DNA from: Chthoniobacterales bacterium
GTDB lineage: Bacteria; Verrucomicrobiota; Verrucomicrobiia; Chthoniobacterales; UBA10450
Direction: 5' to 3'
Assembly (NCBI GenBank): GCA_025934755.1
Contig: JAICWQ010000004.1
Location: 1-47,922, forward strand
Length of the DNA: 47,922 nt
Position numbers and translations under genes: made by a program. Shown piece by piece: positions 7,579 to 47,922 of the stretch (position 1 is the stretch's first letter; every line of letters starts with the position of its first letter). The notes below the pieces were generated by a model that saw nothing but the letters and a program-made list of their open reading frames with translations, made no database searches and had not been told where the DNA came from.

Positions 7579-7660
7579 AGTTGAGAGTCTTTAGTTGAGA
7601 GATGAGAGCGAAAGAGAAGCGTTCTTGCTTCTCTCAACTCTCAACCCTCAACCCTCAACT
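7579..7660. repeat. Paired heptanucleotide-repeat arms upstream of hldD
   Basis: The left arm has four 7-bp units: AGTTGAG 7579-7585, AGTCTTT, AGTTGAG 7593-7599, AGATGAG. The right arm has four 7-bp units: CTCAACT 7633-7639, CTCAACC, CTCAACC, CTCAACT to 7660. The arms are opposed and complementary, and the 26-bp spacer holds its own hairpin AGAGAAGC/GCTTCTCT. It lies between the receptor riboswitch and hldD, which are divergent. Confidence 0.85.
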
Positions 7661-34042: not shown

Positions 34043-34337
34043 AACTTGGCTATGCGTTTAGGGTTTCTGCAGAAGTTCGTCAATAAAAAAAATAATTGTT
34101 TTTTATAGGCTGTTTATAGGCTGTTTCAGGACCGGCTCCGAAGCTGATTTAGGTTGTTCCGTGCGTTTTAACACGAAACCGTCACCCAGCGTCAAGCACC
34201 GAATTTAGCCCTGGTTTTACCCAAGGCCGCAGGTTCTAACAAAACGGCCGGGTGCGGTCAACCCCCTAATCACGCCCTAAAAGGGGTTTTTCCCGGGGCG
34301 GCAAACCGGGATGGTCCCCTGCCTGAATCTGGGAACG
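34043..34337. promoter_or_regulatory. Upstream region of the outer-membrane gene / downstream of rng
   Basis: 295 bp without a gene. On the minus strand an AT-rich tract precedes a possible promoter (TTGACG, 17 bp, TAAACG) about 12 bp before the ATG. Further up is an exact 11-bp tandem repeat TTATAGGCTGT on the + strand (34103-34113, 34114-34124), which could be a regulator or UP-element site. The part near rng is GC-rich (CCCGG/CCGGG, AAAAGGGG runs) but lacks a T-tract on the rng strand. Confidence 0.45.
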
Positions 34338-35989: not shown

Positions 35990-38233
35990 TTAAAAACGAC
36001 GGCGTGGAACGGGCGTCGGCTGGGGAGCCGGCCGTTTGCCTCCCCCAAAGAGCCGTTCAAAAAAGTTCATCGGACGCGGGGTGGGCGCGGCCGTGGCACG
36101 GACAACGCGTGGACGTTTGGAAACCTGTCCCTGCGCATCGGCCTCCTGCTCGACATCGGGAGAAGCATTATCACTCGCCATTTGCACATCCGTGCTTGAC
36201 GAGCCCGCGTCTTCTTCGTCCTCGCCCCCGCCGACATTCGAGCCTTTGAATTCTACCGATTTAACCAGCTGAAACGGATTTTCATGATGCGCGGGAGCCT
36301 CCCAGGCGACTTGCATGTCGAAGTTGCCTTCGTCCATTGCCACGGTGCGTTCCAAAATCCGGGTGGCGATCGGCCCAGCGACCTCGCCGCCATGTCCGGA
36401 AGCGCCCTGGACCATAACAATGACGACATATTTCGGACTATCGAACGGCGCGTAACAAGCAAACCAGGCGACATTTTCCTCATGGCCACGCTCGGTGGCC
36501 TGGGCGGTTCCGGTTTTGCCTGCAACCACAACGTTCTTGAGCCGCGCCCGTCCACCGGTGCCGCCATCTTCGTTTACGACCTTCCACAAACCTTTTCGTA
36601 CTATATCAATCTGGTCCGGGGTCACTTCACGCCGAAGATCAGACCGCACTCGGGGCGCGAAACTTACTGGCTTTCCTTGTTCATTAAGCACCGGTGTGCC
36701 GTCCTGATTAAGTACCTTGTCGACCAACCGCGGGTAGTAACAGGTGCCGCCGTTGGCCGCCGCGGCATAGGCCATCGCCAGTTGCAGTGGCGAAACCAGC
36801 GTATAACCCTGACCGATTGAAACGTTGGCTGTTTGTGCGGACGACCAGCGCTCCTGCGGATGATGAATCTGCATCCATTCCGGCCCCGGCATGTTTCCAG
36901 TCTGCTCGCCACTCAGTTGCAGGCCCGATTCTTCCCCGATCCCGAGTAATTTCCCGATCGTGTCGATCGACTGGATTCCGGCAGCGTTGCCGTACTGATA
37001 AAAGAACGAATCGCACGAGACCTTGAGCGCGTCCGCCAGCCCGATCGTCCCATGGGTATAATGTTTCGACGCTACCCAGCACTGAAAGAAATGGTCGCCG
37101 TAGCTTACCCCGCCCCCGCAGTTGTATTTGTTGTTCGTTAGGCCTTTGCGCAAGCCGGCGAATGACGTAATCAATTTGAAGGTCGACCCCGGCGGAAGCC
37201 CACTGATCGCGCGATTCACCAGCGGGTCGGCCGGGTCCTTTCGCAATGCCTGCCAATCCTTCGCTTTAATGCTCGGGATAAAACTGTTCGGGTCGAACGA
37301 CGGGACCGACGCCATGGCGAGAATATTGCCATTGTTGGGATCGACCACTACCGCCCCGGCCCGGCTCACCGCTCGCAGGGCTTCGTCGGTAATGGCCTGG
37401 ATCCGTGAATCGATCGTCAAAAAAACATTGGCGCCCTGTTTCGGCGGATCTTCCTTCAACACGCTGTCGATTGCTCCTTTTGCGTTGCGCCGGAGATAAC
37501 GAACACCCGGTTTGCCGCGCAAATATTCGTCCATCGATTTCTCGATGTTAGATTTCCCTTCAACGTCACCCTGATAAAAAGTGAATTTGCGCGCTTCCTC
37601 CTGGTTTGTGTCGTCCGGCGCGCCGACGTAGCCTAAAATGTGCGACGCAAGCGCGCCGTAAACGTAAGCGCGCACCGGTTTGATCGCGATGTCGACGCCA
37701 GGAAGTCCAACATCGTGCTCGGAGAATTTGGCCATCGTCGGAAAATCAATGTCCTTGATATAGGAGTAAGGCACTTCGGTATCGTTTCGATAATGCCGCT
37801 CGAGTTGTTTGGAATTGTAATCGCGCGCCAGATCGAGGTCTTCCAGACGCGGAATGATCCCGTCATTGACAATTTTGATGATGTCCGGCTCCTTCACGTC
37901 TTTCGGCATGCCGCTGATAATGGCCCGGTGTTCGGCCAGCGGAGGCGAACCGAAGCGTTCGCGATATCCCTTCACCATCTCCGGCAGATAAAAATCGACT
38001 TCGTAGCTGGCGCGGTTTTGGACCAAGGTCAGCCCGTTGCGATCCTTAATTTCGCCGCGGACAGATGGAATTCGGACTGTCGCCTGGGAGCTGCCGCGAA
38101 TCTGCGCCGTCCACTCTGCTCCGTGGGCCACCTGAATCCACCAGAGCCGCAGGCCGAGGGCGCCCATCCCGAGCAACATCAACAGACCGACAAATTGGAT
38201 CCGCAATCGCGGAGTTAATCGACGGCGATTCAT
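35990..38233 (-). CDS. mrdA: Penicillin-binding protein 2, cell-elongation transpeptidase
   Basis: 747 residues. N-terminal membrane anchor (12-33), then the PBP dimerisation domain (RGEIKDRNGLTLVQNRASYEV). The transpeptidase domain has S350-T-F-K353, S406-C-D408 and K573-T-G575. It cross-links peptidoglycan on the periplasmic side within the elongasome. The C-terminal 90 residues are an acidic, then Pro/Arg-rich tail (EDEEDAGSSSTD..., PAPQPTPVPRRRF) not found in E. coli PBP2. Start overlaps the mreD stop by 4 bp (ATGA). Confidence 0.96.
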   Translation of the reverse strand: MNRRRLTPRLRIQFVGLLMLLGMGALGLRLWWIQVAHGAEWTAQIRGSSQATVRIPSVRGEIKDRNGLTLVQNRASYEVDFYLPEMVKGYRERFGSPPLAEHRAIISGMPKDVKEPDIIKIVNDGIIPRLEDLDLARDYNSKQLERHYRNDTEVPYSYIKDIDFPTMAKFSEHDVGLPGVDIAIKPVRAYVYGALASHILGYVGAPDDTNQEEARKFTFYQGDVEGKSNIEKSMDEYLRGKPGVRYLRRNAKGAIDSVLKEDPPKQGANVFLTIDSRIQAITDEALRAVSRAGAVVVDPNNGNILAMASVPSFDPNSFIPSIKAKDWQALRKDPADPLVNRAISGLPPGSTFKLITSFAGLRKGLTNNKYNCGGGVSYGDHFFQCWVASKHYTHGTIGLADALKVSCDSFFYQYGNAAGIQSIDTIGKLLGIGEESGLQLSGEQTGNMPGPEWMQIHHPQERWSSAQTANVSIGQGYTLVSPLQLAMAYAAAANGGTCYYPRLVDKVLNQDGTPVLNEQGKPVSFAPRVRSDLRREVTPDQIDIVRKGLWKVVNEDGGTGGRARLKNVVVAGKTGTAQATERGHEENVAWFACYAPFDSPKYVVIVMVQGASGHGGEVAGPIATRILERTVAMDEGNFDMQVAWEAPAHHENPFQLVKSVEFKGSNVGGGEDEEDAGSSSTDVQMASDNASPDVEQEADAQGQVSKRPRVVRATAAPTPRPMNFFERLFGGGKRPAPQPTPVPRRRF

Positions 38234-38769
38234 TCAAAAGTCCTTTCCGGCAAATAGGGATAACGCGTCACCCGCGCGACCCAGTTCAAAATCCAAAAAA
38301 TCACCGGCGCCATCAGCATGGCCATGAGTCCCGGCCCGCCAATTTGCCACCACACTTCCCGCGTGAACAGGAACGTGCCGCGCCGAAAGGTAATCATCAG
38401 ATATTGCGCCAAAATAAGGGCGGAGGTGCAGAGGCCGGTCAGCACACAATGAACTTCCCAGCGGCCGCGAATAAACAGAGGCCTTAGGCCATGCATAATT
38501 CCCGCGAGCACAGCGTAAATGAGTATCGACGAACCGACGGATATTTCAACTTTGGTGCCGATGACCTGCACGGTCAGGGCATCGAGCAAAACGCCCGCGA
38601 ACAGGGCCAAGCCCAGCATCAACGGAAACGGCAGCGCCATCGCTCCGTAAAATACAATTACCGGCGCAATGTAAATGTGCGCGTGATACATCCAATCCAG
38701 CGGCGGAATAAAAAATTCCGCAATCTGCGCGATCACAAGCAGCACCAGAAGTATCAAAAAGAAAATCAC
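38230..38769 (-). CDS. mreD: Rod shape-determining protein MreD
   Basis: 179 residues, five or six membrane helices, with LPFPLMLGLALFAGVLLDAL and a GTKVEISVGSSILIYAVLAG core like MreD proteins. Assigned from topology plus its place between mreC and mrdA. Couples the cytoplasmic MreB filament to periplasmic wall enzymes. Overlaps mreC by 4 bp and mrdA by 4 bp, indicating tight translational coupling. Confidence 0.88.
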   Translation of the reverse strand: MIFFLILLVLLVIAQIAEFFIPPLDWMYHAHIYIAPVIVFYGAMALPFPLMLGLALFAGVLLDALTVQVIGTKVEISVGSSILIYAVLAGIMHGLRPLFIRGRWEVHCVLTGLCTSALILAQYLMITFRRGTFLFTREVWWQIGGPGLMAMLMAPVIFWILNWVARVTRYPYLPERTFE

Positions 38770-39569
38770 TTTCGTCCCGTGACCACAAACACATCTTCCA
38801 ACTGGGATAGATCGACCGCCGGCGCCAGTTTCGCCTGACCATCCAGTTCGCGGACTTTAAAGCTTTTCACCGTTCCCAGGAGCAGTCCCGAAGGAAAAAC
38901 CCCGCCCACTCCGGAAGTATAGGCTTTTTGCCCCGGTTGCAGGTTGGCCTGTTTGGTCAAAAAATTCAGATCGAGCAACGGAGCCAGACCGCCTGAAATC
39001 CGTTCGCCTGACACAATCCCCTGTTCCCGGGTGCCTTCGACCGAAGCGGCGACTTTACAATTTTCATCCGTGACCAGGAGCACCACCGCAATGGTATTGC
39101 TGACCGTCGTCGTTTTTCCGACCAGGCCTTCGTCGGTCACGACCGGCATGTCGGTTTCAATGTGATCTTCCTTGCCGCGATTGATTGTGACGGTATGCCA
39201 CCAGGTTGAGGCGTCTCGCGTGACAATTTCCGCCGGGATCAACTTGAAGACCGAGCGCTCCCGATAATTCAGGGCGTGGCGCAACCGGTTCACTTCGTGT
39301 TCGACGTCGCGGAGAGCGGAGTTGGTTGCGCGTAACTGACGATTGTCGAGCCGGAGCGCGGCATTCTCCTTCTCTAGTTCATCCAGCGATTTCAATCCCG
39401 TGCGCACGGAGGTTATTTGCTTCTGGACGCTGGAGCCGGTGGTGAAGAACGGGGCTAGAAGCTGATAAACGTTAGACTGAAATTTCCGTGTCGTCTCCGC
39501 GCCGAAACTCAGGAAGTAACCGAGAACGGCGCCGAAAATCAGCAACGCGATGATGCTGGTTCTGCTCAT
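38766..39569 (-). CDS. mreC: Rod shape-determining protein MreC
   Basis: 267 residues from the ATG at 39569 (MSRTSIIALLIFGAVLGYFLSFG). Membrane anchor 5-25, a coiled coil at about 55-95 (LDELEKENAALRLDNRQLRATNSALRDVEHEVNRL), then the beta-barrel pair (AEIVTRDASTWWHTVTINRG; DMPVVTDEGLVGKTTTVSNTIAVVLLVTDENC). Periplasmic scaffold for PBP2. The ATG directly follows four heptad repeats; an earlier in-frame ATG would encode repeat-derived residues and is unlikely. Confidence 0.95.
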   Translation of the reverse strand: MSRTSIIALLIFGAVLGYFLSFGAETTRKFQSNVYQLLAPFFTTGSSVQKQITSVRTGLKSLDELEKENAALRLDNRQLRATNSALRDVEHEVNRLRHALNYRERSVFKLIPAEIVTRDASTWWHTVTINRGKEDHIETDMPVVTDEGLVGKTTTVSNTIAVVLLVTDENCKVAASVEGTREQGIVSGERISGGLAPLLDLNFLTKQANLQPGQKAYTSGVGGVFPSGLLLGTVKSFKVRELDGQAKLAPAVDLSQLEDVFVVTGRK

Positions 39570-39717
39570 TGCCAATTGCCAATTGCCAATTGCCAATTTG
39601 AAGAATCACCGATTGCCCATCGATCAATCATCCGTCGTGCCGTGACCGGACCAGAGCGACTCGACGCCGGCGCGTGCTCAATCACGTCCAATTGGAAATT
39701 GGAAATTGGAAATTGGA
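39570..39717. repeat. Paired heptanucleotide-repeat arms between mreB and mreC
   Basis: The left arm is TGCCAAT x4 exactly (39570-39597). The right arm is AATTGGA x4 exactly (39690-39717). They share the complementary core CCAATT/AATTGG and are separated by 92 bp of non-coding sequence. The left arm abuts the mreC start codon; the right arm ends 5 bp before the mreB stop codon at 39723. Same plan as 481-564 and 7579-7660. Confidence 0.92.
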
Positions 39718-39722
39718 AGTGC

Positions 39723-40760
39723 TCAGCGCCACTGGCGATCTGCCGCAGCCACTTGACGCAAAAATTTAAGTTCATTCAGACATTTGCCCGTGCCTTCGGC
39801 CACCGCGCTCAACGGGTCTTCCGCAACGTGGACAGGCAAACCAGTTTCCTCGCTCAAAAGCTTGTCGAACCCGCGCAACAACGCGCCGCCCCCTGCCAAA
39901 ACCAGACCGCGATCCACCAAGTCGGCTGAAAGCTCGGGCGGACAACGTTCCAAAGTGATCCGGACTGAATCCACAATCGTCGAGATCGGCTCCAGCAATG
40001 CTTCCCGCACTTCCTGCGACGTAATCATCAAAGTCTTGGGCAATCCCGCCACCAGATCGCGGCCCTTTACTTCCACGCTGGTTTCTTTTTCGCTCGGATA
40101 AGCCGAGCCAATTTTGATTTTGATTTCCTCGGCCGTGCGCTCACCCACCATCAAGTTATAGGCGCGTTTCATGTACTGGACGATTGCCTCATCGAGCTCG
40201 TCGCCTGCCACCCGCACGCTTCGGCTAAAAACAATTCCCGAAAGCGAAATCAACGCGACTTCGGTTGTGCCCCCGCCAATGTCGATAATCATGTTGCCGG
40301 CTGGATCCTGGACCGGCAACCCGACTCCAATCGCCGCCGCCATCGGTTCTTCGATCAAATAAACTTCACGGGCGCCGGCGTGGGTCGCTGATTCGCGCAC
40401 CGCTCGCTTTTCGACTTCGGTAATTCCGGACGGAACCGCGATCACGACACGCGGCCGCGCTTTCACCCGGCGGTTGTGCACTTTCGTGATGAAGTGACGC
40501 AACATTGCCTCGGTCACTTCGAAGTCGGCGATGACGCCATCCTTCAACGGTCGAACCGCGACAATGTTCGAAGGAGTTCGCCCGAGCATGCGCTTCGCTT
40601 CGTCGCCGACCGCCAGCACTTTGTTGGTGCCCGCTTGTACGGCTACGACCGACGGTTCGCGCAGGACAATGCCCTGATCTTTGACGTAAACGAGAGTGTT
40701 CGCGGTACCGAGATCAATACCGATATCGTTCGAGAGAAAACCGAAAAGTCCGTTGAACAT
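39723..40760 (-). CDS. mreB: Rod shape-determining protein MreB (actin homologue)
   Basis: 345 residues. Actin ATPase motifs: [17 protein letters not shown] (phosphate 1), [17 protein letters not shown] (phosphate 2), [16 protein letters not shown] (adenosine). [14 protein letters not shown] and [11 protein letters not shown] are typical of MreB. Forms membrane filaments that direct lateral wall growth. First gene of mreB-mreC-mreD-mrdA-rng, with 153 bp holding the heptad arrays before mreC. Divergent from rpe. Confidence 0.98.
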
Positions 40761-47197: not shown

Positions 47198-47922
47198 ATG
47201 ATGAAGGCCGTGATCAGAGTGTTGTTAGCTTTTTCCATTGTCGCAGCCGCTGCACTCGCGATCGACACCCAATTCAAAACACGCTTTATCACGAGCGCAA
47301 CTTTGACGATCCATGTCAAAGACGGTCAGTACATAACGATAAAGAACTTCACCCAGGATGAAGATGTTGGTGCCGGACGTGGTGTCATCGATGCGGGGCT
47401 CCCTCCACCGAGTCCAACACCTACTCCGACTCCCACGGCGACACCGACGATAACGCCCTCGCCCAGCCCTACTGCAACCCCTACGGCAACGCCAACACCA
47501 ACCCCGACGCCTACGCCGACGCCCACGGCGACGCTAACGCCAACGCCTACACCTCTTAAAGCAGGTGTGCTTACCGCGGCGCTTCTGAAGACACCCCCGA
47601 AAGAATTCATCAAACCAATTACAATCGCTGGACCAGCAACATTAACGATTGATCCAATTCCCGGCGCGACCCTTGCGATAACCTACCGAAAATCGCTCCA
47701 GCCGATTCAGCCGACCGCTACCGCAACAGCCAGTTCGACTTCGACGACCGTAAGATCATCGACGTCGGCAATCTCTACATCGGTGAACTCGACAACCACT
47801 ACGCGTTCCGGGACACTGAATAAGTCCGCCATCTTAGACTCAGACGAGGATGAGATCGAATGGTCGACTCCGCATCCGACGCCGACACCCACGGTCACGC
47901 CAACTCCGACTGCTACGCCAAC
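47198..47922 (+). CDS. Secreted Pro-Thr-repeat protein, paralogue of the preceding gene (runs off the right edge)
   Basis: 241 codons visible, open to the edge. Start is one of two adjacent ATGs (47198 or 47201) followed by a signal peptide ([17 protein letters not shown]). The domain of the preceding gene is recognisable in two halves: [21 protein letters not shown], then after about 45 residues of PTPTATP repeats (about 47405-47555) AGVLTAALL...[27 protein letters not shown] Ser/Thr-rich stretch, an acidic DSDEDEIEW and a second PT-repeat tract follow. PT-repeats are common linkers in verrucomicrobial surface proteins. Function unknown. Confidence 0.75.

Follow-up and report, generated by a model that had tools for sequence, protein, structure and literature searches.

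A candidate reading frame bridging mreB and mreC, kept open through replaceable heptad repeats in a family of soil Verrucomicrobia

In the RNA phages MS2 and fr, the lysis ORF begins inside the 3' end of the coat gene in a different reading frame, at -50 and -38 nt (PMC12548453). In Salmonella, a short ORF in the mgtC-mgtB region, mgtQ, affects downstream translation in an operon where stem-loops hide the ribosome-binding site of the next gene (PMC8092293). Termination-reinitiation coupling has been described for ATGA overlaps (PMC6728339). Heptameric repeats form a separate group of described elements, with GGGAATC in Xanthomonas, TAACTGA in Beggiatoaceae and the STRR of cyanobacteria (PMC4692102, PMC4679880) being the intergenic examples closest to the arrays considered here. 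A literature search combining mre terms with coupling gave a single match, which concerned riboswitch prediction, and a paper on the mre genes of Anabaena deals with regulation of transcription by NtcA, STRR appearing there as a cited reference only.

The window, by which we mean the whole analyzed stretch of 47,922 nt, contains an mre operon in which a gap of 153 nt, from the mreB stop to the mreC ATG, holds two heptad arrays and most of a small ORF. The relevant features are the following.

35990-38233, minus strand: gene of a PBP2-type transpeptidase (mrdA), with Pfam Transpeptidase and PBP_dimer matches; its ATG overlaps the mreD stop by 4 nt
38230-38769, minus strand: mreD by position, without a Pfam match; its GTG start overlaps the mreC stop by 4 nt
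38766-39569, minus strand: mreC, the downstream gene (Pfam MreC, 6.3e-40)
39566-39569, minus strand: ATGA junction, in which the TGA of the bridging ORF overlaps the mreC ATG
39566-39775, minus strand: unannotated bridging small ORF of 69 codons plus stop, with no internal stop and an ATG in the +1 frame of mreB
39568-39598, no strand assigned: left heptad array, (ATTGCCA)4.4, 3' arm of the predicted mRNA hairpin
39599-39689, no strand assigned: spacer between the arms, loop side of the predicted hairpin
39690-39718, no strand assigned: right heptad array, (AATTGGA)4.1, 5' arm of the predicted hairpin
39723-40760, minus strand: mreB (Pfam MreB_Mbl, 5.9e-155), the last 53 nt of which overlap the bridging ORF
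39756-39776, minus strand: AT-rich synonymous island at the start of the bridging ORF, the window of lowest GC3 in mreB
39773-39775, minus strand: ATG of the bridging ORF, formed by the mreB Asn codon AAT followed by GAA

The first-pass annotation had described the TGCCAAT x4 and AATTGGA x4 repeats as perfect, and both are exact, at 39570-39597 and 39690-39717; the corresponding TRF arrays (39568-39598 and 39690-39718, period 7, 4.4 and 4.1 copies) score 100%. Its placement of the arrays between mreB and mreC, with the left arm ending at the mreC ATG (39569-39567, minus strand), agrees with the coordinates. Downstream of the gap the operon is chained by 4-nt overlaps, GTGA for mreC/mreD and ATGA for mreD/mrdA. 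Neither a promoter nor an intrinsic terminator was found in 39500-39900, and no Rfam family matched up to an E-value of 1 in 39400-39900. Among related genomes, G010 and G013 carry extra full-length mreB copies (three in G010, two in G013) with 89-93% identical protein.

The gap was compared among 64 members of one soil Verrucomicrobia family. Its length ranges from 18 to 153 nt and is a multiple of three, placing mreB and mreC in the same frame, in 55 of the 64 despite the 7-nt period of the heptads; the species are related, so that this and the other simple counts are not independent and only the parsimony test allows for kinship. On a tree built from mreB plus mreC, parsimony gives at least 46 changes of gap length and only seven changes of length modulo 3, whereas 2000 unconstrained simulations averaged 19.6 such changes, with 12 or more in every run. 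Stop triplets in the 55 in-frame gaps are distributed as 47, 2 and 61 over frames 0, +1 and +2; within the heptad arrays alone the numbers are 10, 2 and 16. No stop interrupts the +1 frame in 54/64 gaps, the number expected from shuffles being 30.5. In the array of G011, the copy that would place TGA in the +1 frame reads TTA instead. No frame is clearly preferred in the divergent mreB-rpe gap of these genomes (14, 7 and 10 in the three frames). Two connections through frame 0, namely same-frame stop-codon readthrough from mreB into mreC and an N-terminal extension of MreC through the array, were considered and rejected, frame 0 being the stop-rich one with its 47 triplets. Nine genomes of other families have no ATG at the corresponding mreB site, and their frames are mixed. 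In one of these families, mreC of G049 (L093) can start at a TGATG on the mreB stop, and mreB and mreC may be coupled there without a bridge.

Both ends of the open +1 frame are marked by codon choice. The bridging ORF is fully intact (ATG, frame and TGA at the mreC ATG) in 51 of the 64 gaps, the window included, and incomplete or absent in 13; with the stop position taken slightly more loosely it is present in 55/64 mre gaps, as against 3/73 other tandem gaps of the window's genome. The distance from its ATG to the end of the mreB stop is 53 nt, or 56 or 59 nt where mreB is longer, and the Asn codon that makes it is AAT in 60 of 64 species, compared with 142 of 408 (35%) at other mreB Asn codons. 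GC3 in the 7-codon window beginning at this Asn codon is 0.26 (mean 0.67), the lowest value among 330 mreB windows, which fits what one expects where translation initiates. There is more than one such island, because alignment codons 448-454 of mreB form a second stretch of low GC3 that shares part of the pattern; that stretch coincides in many species with another +1-frame ATG, 107 nt before the gap. In a dozen species, that of the window included, the closest +1 stop on the upstream side is found 50-56 nt ahead of the gap, which means that in these any +1 translation must begin at or after that point. At the other end, residue 2 of MreC is Ser in 48 species and is encoded by AGY in all 48, the proportions at other mreC Ser codons being 30% AGY and 70% TCN; the residues that occur at this position, Ser, Asn, Thr and Lys, all have codons beginning with A. 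No clear Shine-Dalgarno sequence precedes the bridging ORF in most species, in a genome that itself shows one in 27/210 cases by a crude test. Pfam gives no match for the product of the window's bridging ORF, and the part encoded in the gap varies between species; because the peptide is not conserved, the function is likely to be the act of translation rather than the peptide.

Compared with the described systems, the bridging ORF resembles the MS2 and fr lysis genes in starting out of frame within the last 50 or so nt of the upstream gene (here at -53) and in running past its stop. The lysis gene, however, encodes a functional lysis protein, whereas the bridging peptide is not conserved, and its ORF stops precisely at the start codon of mreC. 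The likeness to mgtQ consists in a short ORF between two genes of an operon, in a stem-loop region; mgtQ differs in its ribosome-destabilizing acidic codons and its regulation by Mg2+, and the bridging ORF in overlapping mreB, spanning the whole gap and ending at ATGA. The mreC start has the overlap of an upstream stop with a downstream start that characterizes ATGA coupling, but in the known cases the partner is the upstream gene itself, and here an extra ORF bridges a long gap. The effect of the bridging ORF is likely to resemble that of mgtQ and that of ATGA coupling. The predicted hairpin, located directly 3' of the mreB stop, recalls the ribosome termination structure (PMC7518266); unlike that structure, it is contained in a second ORF and extends with its 3' arm to the start codon of mreC.

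While the frame is kept, the repeats that fill it are not. Runs of period 7 that reach 20 nt or more are present in 33/64 mre gaps and in only 6/73 other tandem gaps of this genome, and runs of period 6 or 8 of that length are absent from those gaps. Among the 64 family members the heptad unit differs from species to species almost every time, often with two inverted arms: ATTTCGA in G005, GCGGAAA with TATCCGC in G002 and G004, GATTGCG with CGCAATC in G018, ATTGCAG with CTGAAAT in G011. The arrays of the window are recent, because G005, whose MreB is 100% identical to that of the window, carries a different array in its gap. The earlier alternative that perfect arrays are either recently made or under constraint thus resolves into both, at different levels, the arrays being recent and replaceable and the reading frame through the gap being constrained. 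Judged by this comparison, the arrays are recent, interchangeable insertions and serve as replaceable filler in the gap. In G089, G097 and G098 (L108, L101 and L100) and in L165, a GTGGCATCGGCTTCCAGCC palindrome replaces the heptads at the same site, and the palindrome gaps of the three named genomes are still in frame.

Heptad arrays are also abundant elsewhere in the genome. In a 376-kb sample, TRF reports 30 arrays of period 7 and 11 of period 8, with varied units, whereas a first-order Markov shuffle contains no array of these periods. The arrays lie almost entirely outside genes, with just 3 of the 45 rows of period 7 or 14 inside called genes, and the unit family of the gap arrays reappears at some ten further sites in the 2.97-Mb genome, where a reversed control pattern has no match. 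As tandem 7-nt units that are dispersed and mostly intergenic, these arrays are of a known kind, found also in Xanthomonas, cyanobacteria and Beggiatoaceae. The known heptamers likewise often form inverted pairs (Xanthomonas) or lie beside start codons (Beggiatoaceae); the heptads of the window differ in that their units are diverse within and between species, are not of the G-quadruplex type and, in the mre gap, obey the frame. Other repeats noted in the window include octad arrays of AGATGTTG and CTCAACTA that face each other as inverted arms (479-564), a heptad array (CTCTCAA)4.3 within a 783-nt divergent gap (7631-7660), a perfect 11-nt repeat of TTTATAGGCTG in 2.3 copies (34102-34126) and an imperfect 6- and 12-nt repeat, CAACGC / CAACGCCGACGC (47467-47547). 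GTTGAG arrays of period 8 occur repeatedly in the genome (L062, L041 and L037), and inverted TTGGMAA heptad arrays lie between its tRNA-Arg(tcg) and tRNA-His(gtg) genes (L051, 1515-1609).

On the mRNA, the two arms of the window read (TTTCCAA)n and (TTGGCAA)n; they are near-inverted and therefore able to pair, with one mismatch per heptad. Across the family, the predicted folding of the gap is stronger than in control gaps (median z of -2.3 vs -0.9, p = 2e-5), with z above -2 in 27 of the 64 mre gaps. The hairpin of the window's own gap is only weakly better than shuffles (z of -1.8, and -0.2 for a longer segment). The predicted hairpin is the weaker part of the coupling model developed below.

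Several other explanations of these observations have to be weighed. The arrays might be slip-strand, phase-variable regulators of mreC, as the first-pass annotation had proposed in suggesting that copy number could tune cell shape. Perfect 7-nt arrays are prone to slippage in principle, and one of them adjoins the start codon. The annotation did choose the right place, as the gap bears on ribosome access to mreC, but tuning by copy number is unsupported, because the closest species pairs (G002/G004, G010/G034 and G087/G100) have identical unit counts and lengths. Among the 64 family members no relatives differ by unit number alone, units being replaced rather than counted, and adding or removing a single 7-nt unit would disrupt the +1 frame conserved in the family. 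This explanation is very unlikely, and we give equally little credence to a variant in which the gain or loss of one unit uncouples mreC and three restore coupling, producing reversible cell-shape variants in a population. It is also conceivable that the gap is neutral intergenic DNA colonized by a common repeat, with the rest due to shared ancestry: heptad arrays are indeed common in the intergenic DNA of this genome, and some gap sequence is common to related species. Such a reading, already disfavoured, is left with hardly any probability, for the tree-aware simulation never gave so few frame changes as observed, the adjacent divergent gap in the same genomes lacks a clear frame preference, and heptads are far more frequent in the mre gaps than in other tandem gaps.

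Two further explanations accept that the gap is functional. The arrays and the hairpin could matter only as mRNA structure, stabilizing the 3' end of mreB or insulating ribosome termination, with the ORF being incidental. Hairpins in the mre gaps are stronger than in other tandem gaps, unrelated repeats and other palindromes yield a hairpin at the same place, and post-stop hairpins have been described as insulating against reinitiation (PMC7518266). A role in structure alone is nevertheless quite improbable, since it leaves unexplained the length modulo 3, the depletion of stops in one frame, the codon choice at the ATG and the ATGA, and a z above -2 in 27 of 64 gaps fits it poorly. Programmed +1 frameshifting near the end of mreB would produce an alternative MreB tail ending at the mreC start, without separate initiation; the frame, its openness and its end would then be the same as for the bridging ORF, and in G036 the +1 frame is open though the ATG is absent. 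Frameshifting is unlikely, however, as the mreB stop (TGA, TAA or TAG) and the base after it vary, leaving no constant slippery site, and as such a mechanism accounts neither for the ATG nor for the minimum of GC3 there. Moreover, the frame is lost in three of the four species without the ATG, compared with 6 of the 60 with it (p = 0.007, among related species).

The reading that we prefer, and regard as probable, is that the bridging ORF is translated and thereby links mreC translationally to mreB, by way of a repeat hairpin whose sequence changes quickly. Comparative evidence supports the arrays, the conservation of start, frame and stop, and the ATGA; from these we infer translation of the ORF, reinitiation, a role for the hairpin and a purpose, which may be stoichiometry or the avoidance of polarity. 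That the frame is kept open while the repeats are swapped suggests that ribosomes are passed from mreB to mreC. Ribosomes would start in the +1 frame at the ATG inside the 3' end of mreB, cross the gap and terminate on the TGA that overlaps the mreC ATG, where they could reinitiate. The inverted arms would fold the mRNA, with the 3' arm covering the mreC start, so that the hairpin would be unfolded by ribosomes translating the bridging ORF, and initiation at mreC would be held to a constant proportion of the ribosome flow along mreB. Array insertions would be tolerated only where the total length remains in frame and no +1 stop arises, and the bridging ORF would supply the missing mreB-to-mreC link in the chain of 4-nt overlaps that joins mreC, mreD and mrdA. 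This model predicts that one added heptad breaks the frame and that three keep it.

The comparison thus indicates that an essential cell-shape operon contains an unannotated reading frame maintained by selection, which can be recognized only because repeat insertions keep replacing the sequence and yet respect the frame. As a proposed novel form of translational coupling, associated with repeat arrays of a type already described, it also suggests a general way of searching for translated 'intergenic' regions, by conserved length modulo 3 and stop depletion in one frame across non-homologous gaps. If the coupling is real, it would explain how the output of MreC is tied to that of MreB across a gap of up to 153 nt of hairpin-forming repeats.
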